A stretch of 52,362 nucleotides of DNA from an uncultured Anaeromyxobacter sp. (GTDB lineage Bacteria; Myxococcota; Myxococcia; Myxococcales; Anaeromyxobacteraceae), in the NCBI GenBank assembly GCA_903904005.1, contig CAIVAR010000142.1, positions 1 through 52,362 of the forward strand, in the 5' to 3' direction. Position numbers and translations under genes: made by a program. The notes under the pieces were generated by a model, which saw nothing but the letters and a program-made list of their open reading frames with translations, was not told where the DNA came from and searched no databases. This document shows positions 22,446 to 25,995 of the stretch, piece after piece. How positions within the stretch are numbered: position 1 is the first letter of the stretch; each line of letters opens with the position of its first letter.

Positions 22446-24041
22446 TTGAGCGGAAATCCGGAAGCGCTCCTGCGCGGAGCGCTCGAGAAGATCGTGTACT
22501 TCGAGTGCCGGCTCTCGCAGCTGGAGAGCGAGCTCTCCGCCGCGCGCGAGGTCGCGTCGCGTGAGAAGGAGTCCGCGGCCGGCGCGCGCGCCCGGGAGAC
22601 CACCGCCGCCGCCGAGCTGGCCCGGGTCCGCAGCGAGATGGAGATCGCCCGCCACCGCGAGACGGAGCTCGCCGAGCGGGTCCGCCTCCTCGAGGGGGAG
22701 CGGGAGCGATTCCTCTCCGGGCTCATCGACCAGGCCCGCATCGCCGGCGCTCCCTCCGACGGGCAGGCCGCCGGCGAGGAGGCCGACCTGGCCGGCTTCA
22801 TCGCCGAGCTCCGCGCCGAGATCGAGCGGCTGCGCCCATGGAAGATCGCCGCCGAGGCCGCCGGGCTCCGGCTCGACGAGCGGGCCCCGCTGGCGGTGCC
22901 CGCCGGCGCCGCGTCGGTCGACGATCTGGCCCGGTCGTTCCAGCACTCCGGCCGGCTCGGCATGAACCGCGCCGACTCCATCCGCATGGAGACCGGGATG
23001 GAGAGCCGGGCCGAGCGCTCGCTCTACGAATCGTCCATGGAGGACCTGGCCTCGATCGACCGCCACTCCCGCCGCCGGGCCGCCGACGCGCTGCGCGTCA
23101 TGGGCTCCCGCGCCGCGGCGCCGCTCGTGGCCGCCGCGGTGGGGCGCGAGCGGGACGAGGAGGTGAAGGTGGCGCTCCTCTCGGCGCTCGCCGCGCTCGG
23201 CGAGGCGGCCACCGTCGACGTGGCGGCACGCGAGCTGCTCGATCCGCGGCCGGCCGTGCGGGCCGCGGCCCTCGACGCGGTGGCGGCCCTCGGCGGCGAG
23301 TCGGCCGAGCCGCGCCTGCTCGGGGGGCTCGCCGACGGGAGCCCGCTCGTGCGGCGGCGCGCCGTGCTGCTCCTCGGATTCGCCCGCGGTCCGCAGGTCG
23401 AGGAGGCGCTGCGGGTCGCGCTCGCCGATCGCGACCCTGGTGTGGGTCGCGCCGCGGCCCTCGCCCTCTCCGGACGCCCCACCGCCTCCGCCCAGGCGGC
23501 GCTCACCCGTGCCCTCGACCACGGCGACGAGTCGGTCCGCCGCGTGGCCGCGAAGGCCGTGGCCCGCTGGTCGGGCGAGTCGGTGGCTGCCGCCGCGCCC
23601 GCCGAGGACCGGCGGCGCGCCGCACGCCGCATCTCCGAGAAGCTCTCCGCCGTGGGGGCGACGGCGCTCCGCGACGCGGTGACGGCCGACCCGGTCGCCG
23701 TGCCGCGCGCCGCACCGGCTCCCGCGCGCGTGGCCGCGACGACCCGCCCGGCCGCACCGTTGCCGGTCGCCACCGTGGCCCGTCCGGCCGCGCAGGTGGC
23801 CGCGCGCCCCGCCTCGCCCACCGCGCTCCTGGCCAGGGCCGCCGTGGCCGTCATCGACGTCCCGTCCGGCGACCTCTCGCCCGTGGAGGCTGCCGTCCTC
23901 CTCGAGCTCCGCTCGGCGCTGCGCGGACGCTCGCCGGAGGAGATCGCCCGTGTGGTCCCGGGCGGCGCCGACCGGGCACTCGCCGCGCTCGTCGCCCGCG
24001 GCGCGGCCGTGCAGCGCGGCGCGCGGTACTTCCCGGCCTAG
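22446..24041 (+). CDS. pomY: PomY-like protein: coiled coil, HEAT repeats, Pro/Ala linker
   Basis: 531 residues from a TTG start preceded by GGAGG. Layout: N-terminal coiled coil (about 5-145, many heptads of E/R/L/A), a linker, HEAT-like alpha-helical repeats (about 198-388, repeating helix pairs such as RRAADALRVMG and RRRAVLLLGFA), a Pro/Ala/Val linker (about 418-460), and a compact C-terminal region (475-531) that looks like a winged helix. The order coiled coil, HEAT, Pro-rich matches PomY of M. xanthus, which with PomX stimulates PomZ and helps place the division ring at midcell. The ParA gene starts 11 nt downstream. The identification rests on architecture plus synteny. Confidence 0.78.
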   Translation: MSGNPEALLRGALEKIVYFECRLSQLESELSAAREVASREKESAAGARARETTAAAELARVRSEMEIARHRETELAERVRLLEGERERFLSGLIDQARIAGAPSDGQAAGEEADLAGFIAELRAEIERLRPWKIAAEAAGLRLDERAPLAVPAGAASVDDLARSFQHSGRLGMNRADSIRMETGMESRAERSLYESSMEDLASIDRHSRRRAADALRVMGSRAAAPLVAAAVGRERDEEVKVALLSALAALGEAATVDVAARELLDPRPAVRAAALDAVAALGGESAEPRLLGGLADGSPLVRRRAVLLLGFARGPQVEEALRVALADRDPGVGRAAALALSGRPTASAQAALTRALDHGDESVRRVAAKAVARWSGESVAAAAPAEDRRRAARRISEKLSAVGATALRDAVTADPVAVPRAAPAPARVAATTRPAAPLPVATVARPAAQVAARPASPTALLARAAVAVIDVPSGDLSPVEAAVLLELRSALRGRSPEEIARVVPGGADRALAALVARGAAVQRGARYFPA

Positions 24042-24052
24042 GAGCGAGACGC

Positions 24053-25012
24053 ATGGACAACGTGAAATACACGTCGAGGCGCCTCGCCGAGCTCTTCGGG
24101 CTCACGCCCAAGCAGGTCCACGAGATCATCGGGCGCCGCGACGGGTTCGGTCCGCGCGACCTCGCCACGCTGCGCAAGTCGGTGCGCCGGCCGCCCCCCC
24201 CCTTCCCGCACCGCAAGCAGCTGTTCCTCAACTTCAAGGGGGGCACCGGCAAGACCTCGCTCTCCACCTCCTACGCCTACCGGCTCGCCGAGCGCGGCTA
24301 CAAGGTGCTCGTCATCGATCTCGACAGCCAGGGGCACGCCACCCGCTGCCTGGGCGAGGAGGGGTCGAGCTTCACGAAGACCCTCTACGACGTGCTGGTG
24401 CGCAAGACCCCGCTCGCCGAGGTCACGGTCGAGACCAAGATGCCCGGGCTCTTCCTCGTCCCGGCCAACCTGGCCATGAGCACCGTCGACCTGGCGCTCA
24501 TGCCCATGGCCGGGCGCGAGTTCAAGCTGCGCAACGCCCTGCGCGAGTCGGAGAAGGTCTACGACTTCGTGGTGATGGACGCCCCGCCGTCGTTCGGGCT
24601 GCTCAACCTGAACGCCCTCATGGCGGCCAACGACCTGGTCACGCCGGTGCTCGCCGACTTCCTCTCCTACGACGGCCTGCGCCTCCTCTTCGAGACCATC
24701 CAGGGGCTCGAGGAGGACCTGTCGCACCAGCTCGAGAACATCTTCATCTGCGTGAACGCCTTCAACCAGACGTTCCGCATCGCCCGCGAGGCCGTCGACG
24801 CCCTGCGCGAGCACTATTCCGAGTACCTGCTGCACAGCGTGGTGCGGCAGTGCACCAAGTTCGCCCAGGCCTCCAGCGAGGGATGCCCGGTGTTCGGCTA
24901 CGACCCCGATTCCAAGGGGGCGATGGACATCGAGGCCATGCAGCTCGAGGTGCTGGGGCGGATCAAGGACGGGCTGGCCGCACGGCCCGACGCCGCGAGG
25001 AGCGTGAGATGA
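24053..25012 (+). CDS. pomZ: PomZ-like ParA/MinD ATPase for division-site positioning
   Basis: 319 residues. A short N-terminal HTH-like segment (YTSRRLAELFGLTPKQVHEII) precedes a deviant Walker A motif KGGTGKT (62-68, signature Lys62, Lys67) and a Walker A' motif with D89/D91 (IDLDSQGH). Walker B is near VVMDAPPSFG. These residues lie one position from those reported for M. xanthus PomZ (G62, K66, D90), from memory. PomZ dimers bind DNA non-specifically and move the PomXY cluster across the nucleoid to midcell, where it promotes FtsZ ring formation. The start has GGAGCGAGACGC before it, and the stop overlaps the next start (ATGA). Confidence 0.87.
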   Translation: MDNVKYTSRRLAELFGLTPKQVHEIIGRRDGFGPRDLATLRKSVRRPPPPFPHRKQLFLNFKGGTGKTSLSTSYAYRLAERGYKVLVIDLDSQGHATRCLGEEGSSFTKTLYDVLVRKTPLAEVTVETKMPGLFLVPANLAMSTVDLALMPMAGREFKLRNALRESEKVYDFVVMDAPPSFGLLNLNALMAANDLVTPVLADFLSYDGLRLLFETIQGLEEDLSHQLENIFICVNAFNQTFRIAREAVDALREHYSEYLLHSVVRQCTKFAQASSEGCPVFGYDPDSKGAMDIEAMQLEVLGRIKDGLAARPDAARSVR

Positions 25013-25995
25013 GGAAGGCCTTCGACACGAACGTCCCGAAGCTGAAGCCCCGGCTGCGCCCGGCAGGCGTGGCCACGCTCGACCCGGAGCCGTCCGCGGA
25101 GGCGGAGGCCCTGGCCGGGGAGCCCGTCGCCGCCGAGGCGTTCGCGCCGGAGCCCGAGGAGGCATTCTTCGAGCCGGCGGTCGAGCCGGTCGTCGAGGCG
25201 AGGCCCGAGGAGCGCGCGGTCGTGGAGCGCCCGGTCGCCGCCGCGCCTCCCCCGCCGGCGACCCGTTCGGCCCGGGCCGCGGCCCGCGCCGCCGCCGTGA
25301 CCGCACCGCCCCCGACGCCGCAGGGCGACCTCGCCGAGCGCAAGGAGCGGCTCGAGAAGATCAAGCGCAAGGTGGCCGAGGCGGCACGCCGGGGCACGCC
25401 GGCCGCGGCGCCGCGCGAGCCGGCCCGCGCCGCCGAGAGCGCGCTCTCGCTCGTGGGCGATCTCGACCGGCAGCTGGCCCGCTCCCGCGAGCTGGAGGAG
25501 GCGCTCCGCGCCGACGTCCACCAGGCCCGCACCGAGCTGGCCCGCGCCGCCGGCGACGCCGAGGCCTCCCGGGGCCGGCTGGCCGGCCTCGAGAAGGAGC
25601 TGGAGGAGCGGCGCGGCATGATGGCCGAGATGCTCGCCGAGATGACCGCGCTCGAGGAGGAGCGCGACCAGTCGGTGCGGCGGGCCCAGGCGCTCGCCGC
25701 CCTCGACGAGGATCGGCAGCGGGTCGCCGACGACCTCTCCCGCCGGGGAGACGAGCTGGAGGCGGCCCTCCAGGCCGCGCGCGGCGAGGGGGAGCGGCTC
25801 ACCGCCGAGCTCGACGAGCGCACCGCCGACGGCGCCCGTCTGCGGGCCGGCCTCTCCGAGACGGTGCGGGAACGGGACGCCCTGTCCCGCGAGCTCGTCG
25901 CCATCCGCGTCGAGCGGGACGAGCTGCTCGAGGCCCGCCGGGCGCTCGAGAAGGTGCACGAGGCGCTCTCGCAGGCCCGTTCGCGCCTCGGGTAG
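25009..25995 (+). CDS. pomX: PomX-like coiled-coil scaffold with N-terminal activating peptide
   Basis: 328 residues. The N-terminus MRKAFDTNVPKLKPRLRP is basic, with Lys13 and Arg15 at the positions known (from memory) to be needed for M. xanthus PomX to stimulate PomZ ATPase. A long acidic, Pro/Ala-rich disordered region follows (about 25-100). The rest (about 105-328) is almost entirely coiled coil. PomX forms the scaffold of the PomXYZ cluster. Overlap with pomZ and the same gene order as in M. xanthus (pomY-pomZ-pomX) support the assignment. It is shorter than the roughly 400-residue M. xanthus protein, mostly in the linker or coil. Confidence 0.82.
   Translation: MRKAFDTNVPKLKPRLRPAGVATLDPEPSAEAEALAGEPVAAEAFAPEPEEAFFEPAVEPVVEARPEERAVVERPVAAAPPPPATRSARAAARAAAVTAPPPTPQGDLAERKERLEKIKRKVAEAARRGTPAAAPREPARAAESALSLVGDLDRQLARSRELEEALRADVHQARTELARAAGDAEASRGRLAGLEKELEERRGMMAEMLAEMTALEEERDQSVRRAQALAALDEDRQRVADDLSRRGDELEAALQAARGEGERLTAELDERTADGARLRAGLSETVRERDALSRELVAIRVERDELLEARRALEKVHEALSQARSRLG

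Follow-up and report, generated by a model that had tools for sequence, protein, structure and literature searches.

The window, by which is meant the whole stretch of 52,362 nucleotides analysed here, corresponds to contig C142 in an Anaeromyxobacteraceae MAG of 4.56 Mb and 98% completeness. Three genes, established by ORF calls and translation and all on the + strand, occupy positions 22446-25995 in the order pomY-pomZ-pomX. The genes and the parts of their products are the following:

pomY, 22446..24041, + strand: TTG start at 22446, TAG stop, 531 aa
PomY N-terminal coiled coil, aa 5-101, + strand: AlphaFold2 model
PomY HEAT repeats, about aa 188-413, + strand: Pfam HEAT_2 (E 4e-15) and model
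PomY disordered Ala/Pro-rich linker, aa 418-474, + strand: AlphaFold2 model
PomY linker segment SPTALLARAAVAVID, aa 457-471, 23814..23858, + strand: contains RAAVAVID, a candidate alternative interaction motif
PomY C-terminal winged-helix domain gD, aa 479-530, 23880..24035, + strand: three helices and two strands in the model
pomZ, 24053..25012, + strand: ATG at 24053, TGA stop, 319 aa
pomX, 25009..25995, + strand: ATG at 25009, TAG stop, 328 aa
PomX N-terminal peptide (NPEP), 25009..25074, + strand: MRKAFDTNVPKLKPRLRPAGVA, with Lys13 and Arg15 present

A Shine-Dalgarno-like GGAGG lies 4 nt before the TTG start of pomY. The gap between pomY and pomZ is 11 nt, with AGGAG upstream of pomZ, and the start of pomX overlaps the end of pomZ through ATGA; from this spacing and the Shine-Dalgarno-like sequences the three genes look like a single transcription unit. 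Their dN/dS, calculated against three close relatives, is 0.13-0.31. The initial annotation had described three overlapping or closely spaced genes encoding a coiled-coil, HEAT and Pro-rich protein, a ParA/MinD ATPase and a coiled-coil protein, with the order and architecture of the PomYZX system of M. xanthus. The spacing and the protein types were as described, the third protein being Pro-rich as well, and the protein matches and gene order given below bear out the likeness to M. xanthus.

The Pom system moves over the chromosome and marks mid-cell for division, and was first studied in Myxococcus xanthus. All three window proteins matched their counterparts in M. xanthus AM003 (L062): PomZ with 66% identity over 304 aa (E 8e-151), PomY with 33% over 426 aa (E 2e-27), its C-terminal gD matching separately, and PomX with 32% over 316 aa (E 3e-22). 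When the whole AM003 genome was searched, in one direction, the best match of PomY was pomY (2e-30, the next being 7e-6) and the sole match of PomX was pomX. PomX aligns with M. xanthus PomX over most of its length and its other matches are coiled-coil families only. Outside the key regions PomX and PomY are divergent (32-33% to M. xanthus), and their matches rest in part on coiled-coil and low-complexity sequence, whereas gene order, NPEP and gD do not. Gene order and strand are those of the M. xanthus locus and of the other loci compared. Of 80 named loci with long enough flanks, essentially all show the arrangement pomY-pomZ-pomX, which is maintained across Myxococcia. Both comparisons proposed by the initial annotation, with the M. 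xanthus proteins and with gene order elsewhere, agree with a Pom locus, and a match of three proteins in identical order is, judged by sequence, not a matter of chance.

The window and M. xanthus (PomX, PomY and PomZ being MXAN_0636, MXAN_0634 and MXAN_0635) have in common the gene set, its order, the ATPase motifs, the DNA-binding lysine, an NPEP with K13 and R15, and a PomY formed by coiled coil, HEAT repeats, disordered linker and gD. The differences are a shorter PomX (328 vs 404 aa), a shorter PomY (531 vs 682 aa) and a short PomY linker without the helix alpha5, where RAAVAVID precedes gD instead.

PomZ is a ParA/MinD ATPase (PF13614, E 4e-44) with the Walker A motif KGGTGKT. By residue mapping K67 corresponds to M. 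xanthus K66, D91 to D90 and the DNA-binding K269 to K268. A conserved N-terminal extension of ~50 residues (aa 1-56, 24053-24220) stands before the ATPase domain; it is weakly HTH-like (PF13518, E 0.13) and goes without discussion in the available text of the Pom papers cited here.

Membership of the ParA/MinD superfamily, with ParA/Soj proteins as the closest solved relatives by sequence, is also what the ParA of a chromosome or plasmid partition locus (ParABS) with unrelated coiled-coil neighbours would present. However, PomZ is only 32% identical to the host's own ParA but 66% to M. xanthus PomZ, and it is flanked by orthologs of PomX and PomY instead of ParB; a partition locus has next to no probability here. 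Such an origin was rejected on the NPEP and PomY matches and on a separate rsmG-parA-parB cluster (L001) on contig C96, in which rsmG and parB were recognised by reading the translated sequence. The contrary outcome named beforehand, namely ParA proteins as best hits, a parB neighbour and unrelated coiled coils, was checked and fails, the canonical ParA lying on another contig. ParABS, MinCDE and McdAB have the ParA/MinD ATPase fold in common with the window PomZ, and in ParABS and MinCDE, as in Pom, the activating protein carries a basic peptide at its N-terminus; the three systems differ from Pom in their partners, cargo and neighbouring genes, the window presenting no ParB neighbour and the genome no MinC. 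An orphan ParA-like ATPase was also identified at G000:C21:34241-34987 (L003), beside ArsA/MinD-like ATPases and with no ParB seen within 3.5 kb.

PomX comprises an N-terminal PomZ-activating peptide (by homology with M. xanthus), an Ala/Pro-rich disordered part and a C-terminal coiled coil. The M. xanthus counterpart of the NPEP is MKKAFEQNVSRAKPRLRLGALT; in that species the peptide activates PomZ, and a role of K13 and R15 is described (PMC7993993). When the sequence immediately downstream of pomZ was scanned with a profile, the NPEP was recognised in 80 of 83 loci; of the exceptions, two out of three are at contig ends. Position 13 is basic in all 80 recognised loci and position 15 in 78. 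The peptide looks like the ancestral PomZ activator.

PomY was modelled with AlphaFold2 from a 25-row alignment (mean pLDDT 82), and a fold search of the PDB with it matched HEAT-type alphaRep proteins. The modelled domain order agrees with the one published for M. xanthus, where gD is part of the PomZ-activating segment (PMC13170346). The window PomY lacks the canonical helix alpha5 (PVQAALVAM).

FtsZ was found in the host genome; for MinC no PF03775 match was obtained there, and control genomes did match. Because of the orthology, the intact genes, the key residues and domains kept, the purifying selection, the presence of FtsZ and the absence of MinC, the locus is read as a complete, functional pomY-pomZ-pomX operon positioning the FtsZ ring (probability about 0.95). 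All the cell biology of the Anaeromyxobacteraceae host is inferred by orthology from M. xanthus, the steps being taken from the available text of PMC7993993, PMC10307791 and PMC13170346. The PomX coiled coil would drive polymerisation into one scaffold per cell, to which PomY would bind, condensing via its own coiled coil and recruiting and bundling FtsZ. ATP-bound PomZ dimers, held on the nucleoid via K269, would tether this cluster; hydrolysis of ATP by PomZ, and its release, would be triggered jointly by the N-terminal peptide of PomX (K13, R15) and the C-terminal segment of PomY. The resulting PomZ flux would carry the cluster to mid-nucleoid and mid-cell, where PomY would start the Z-ring.

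ParA-type ATPases position many cargoes, and with alpha5 absent and PomX and PomY divergent, a Pom-derived system could have been re-purposed for a cargo other than the Z-ring. This is very improbable: all three proteins, gD, the operon and the PomY coiled coil, which is linked to condensation in M. xanthus (PMC10307791), are kept, and without MinC there is no Min system to take over division positioning.

Within the reading as a Z-ring positioner, the manner in which PomY would act on PomZ deserves separate treatment. In M. xanthus the nine-residue alpha5 was proposed, by modelling, to contact a hydrophobic pocket of PomZ, the conservation of this pocket being taken as support (PMC13170346). 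As alpha5 is reported in only nine orthologs in the available text of that paper, it is not a family-defining element of PomY. Among 56 gD-bearing PomYs an alpha5-like motif was identified in 21 (0.02 expected in shuffled linkers), from Myxococcus, Corallococcus, Citreicoccus, Hyalangium and near kin. The pattern R-x-AVAV-x-[ED] and close variants were identified in 19 of the 56, located 16-28 residues before gD (0.6 expected), and none of the 56 contains both motifs; as the sequences are related and had been inspected before the pattern was drawn up, these motif counts are descriptive. Its bearers are the window PomY and PomY linkers within L039-L118, and include Archangium-like MAGs. A gD seems to be missing from the PomY of L077, L088, L113, L114, G055 (L130) and G057 (L131), which ends after the HEAT repeats or in a short tail.

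Of the 8 pocket positions of PomZ, 7 (L139, L146, F180, L182, L185, L210 and D221) do not vary across the 61 loci that fall beyond the core alpha5 group, a set that includes alpha5-like variants (L066, L069) and some loci with PomY cut by a contig end. Since the pocket is kept in these loci, its conservation does not by itself support alpha5 as the pocket ligand: either other linker motifs use the pocket, or its conservation has a different cause. Without alpha5, the second activator, PomY, may act differently in the window lineage. A refinement of the main reading goes further and makes PomX the sole PomZ activator in the lineage, with PomY as a condensate and FtsZ factor that does not activate the ATPase. 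Consistent with it are the lack of alpha5 in the window PomY and in most orthologs beyond Myxococcus, Corallococcus and Hyalangium, and an NPEP that is near universal, other classes included. The refinement is nevertheless rather unlikely, as the predicted alpha5 pocket is invariant in the way just given, gD is kept in the window PomY, and the alpha5-containing segment 496-623 of M. xanthus PomY is insufficient without gD (PMC13170346).

The nearest relatives of the window PomZ are in MAGs titled Anaeromyxobacteraceae or Anaeromyxobacter (94-95% and 86%), followed by Anaeromyxobacter species (75-77%). The rpoB gene groups the host with other genomes of Anaeromyxobacteraceae, inside Myxococcota. 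The Pom loci of A. oryzae (L042) and A. soli (L045) belong to the same family and have the same order, with PomZ at 75-77%, and differ from the window by ordinary sequence divergence only (PomY about 50%). The window locus is an ordinary member, and the Pom system was already known in Anaeromyxobacteraceae, since PMC7993993 lists the A. dehalogenans PomX (Adeh_3834). Two expectations of the initial annotation held in part. The Myxococcota origin stands for the host, although the locus alone is no proof of it, being present in Fibrobacterota too; and the divergent system offered for comparison is not new for the family, given Adeh_3834. A Myxococcus-type pom locus (71% GC) was also identified in a 9-Mb genome titled Comamonas sp. 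KCTC 72670 (L063, BNCN01000008.1), a title that looks wrong.

With a strict cut-off, 133 of the 195 Myxococcota genomes searched had a PomZ. Three hits were outside the class of the window, G046 (L129), G055 (L130) and G057 (L131), from two classes where PomZ was identified in 1 of 9 and 2 of 4 genomes examined. In these loci a HEAT-containing or weakly PomY-like gene lies upstream of pomZ and a coiled-coil gene downstream, the latter with NPEP-like starts (MKNAFDQNVPRLRP, MKSGFEGALPRRKPRTR and MKSAFSKNVSKKKPRTR). By these sequence features, divergent pomYZX cassettes occur in Myxococcota classes other than that of the window.

Complete pomY-Z-X loci were also identified in two Fibrobacterota MAGs, one titled Chitinispirillaceae (L049, G195) and the other Fibrobacter sp. 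(L051, G196). The cassettes occupy the following positions and their flanks:

L049, 5001-5927
L051, 5001-5945

The cassettes are interior on contigs of 93 kb and 122 kb. PomZ was identified in only these 2 of 168 Fibrobacterota genomes, and the two hosts are taxonomic relatives of each other. In the literature searched no mention was found of PomZ together with Fibrobacter. The gene order is that of the window, with the NPEP MRKAFDANVPKLKPRLRPA, a PomY gD and PomZ at 68-69%; the differences are the host phylum, a GC of 43-45%, unrelated flanking genes and a PomY with neither alpha5 nor the R-x-AVAV motif. Within 34-36 kb the pom genes alone are common to L049 and L051 (67, 89 and 53% identical). 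They contain no stops and present a dN/dS of about 0.19 (pomY), 0.04 (pomZ) and 0.15 (pomX), with dS near saturation; the cassettes are, as estimated from these ratios, under purifying selection.

By rpoB both hosts fall with other Fibrobacterota genomes, far from Myxococcota (100/100), whereas their PomZ groups with Anaeromyxobacteraceae (100/99), as does the concatenation of the three proteins (100/100). The pom genes of the two hosts have a GC of 45-50%, vs about 73% in Anaeromyxobacteraceae loci. The AU comparison of cassettes nested in vs sister to Anaeromyxobacteraceae gave p 0.398, so both placements fit. Contamination or mis-titled bins are unlikely in view of the rpoB placement, a GC matching that of the rpoB contigs, and mid-contig positions with unrelated flanks in two separately titled MAGs. 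Flank proteins, compared with sampled relatives, were mildly in favour (best 64.5% to a Fibrobacterota relative, with few hits overall); one L051 flank gene matched only Myxococcota among these relatives. The mid-contig position, the purifying selection and the grouping with Anaeromyxobacteraceae indicate a cross-phylum transfer, read most simply as an old event in which an Anaeromyxobacteraceae-like donor passed on the cassette as a whole. A fuller proposal, for and against which the balance is even, is that the pom genes are a self-contained transferable module that entered Chitinispirillia, was kept intact amid changed surroundings and works there, and that in the absence of alpha5, as in the window, another linker motif or gD contacts PomZ.

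The window locus itself is of low novelty, and the parts worth a second look are the cross-phylum cassettes and the distribution of alpha5. The limited spread of this helix, the 19 PomYs with the other motif and the invariant PomZ pocket call into question alpha5 as a general route of PomZ activation. If true, the block transfer between phyla would mean that portability is possible for a Z-ring positioner, and the Fibrobacterota cassettes would constitute a natural heterologous experiment.
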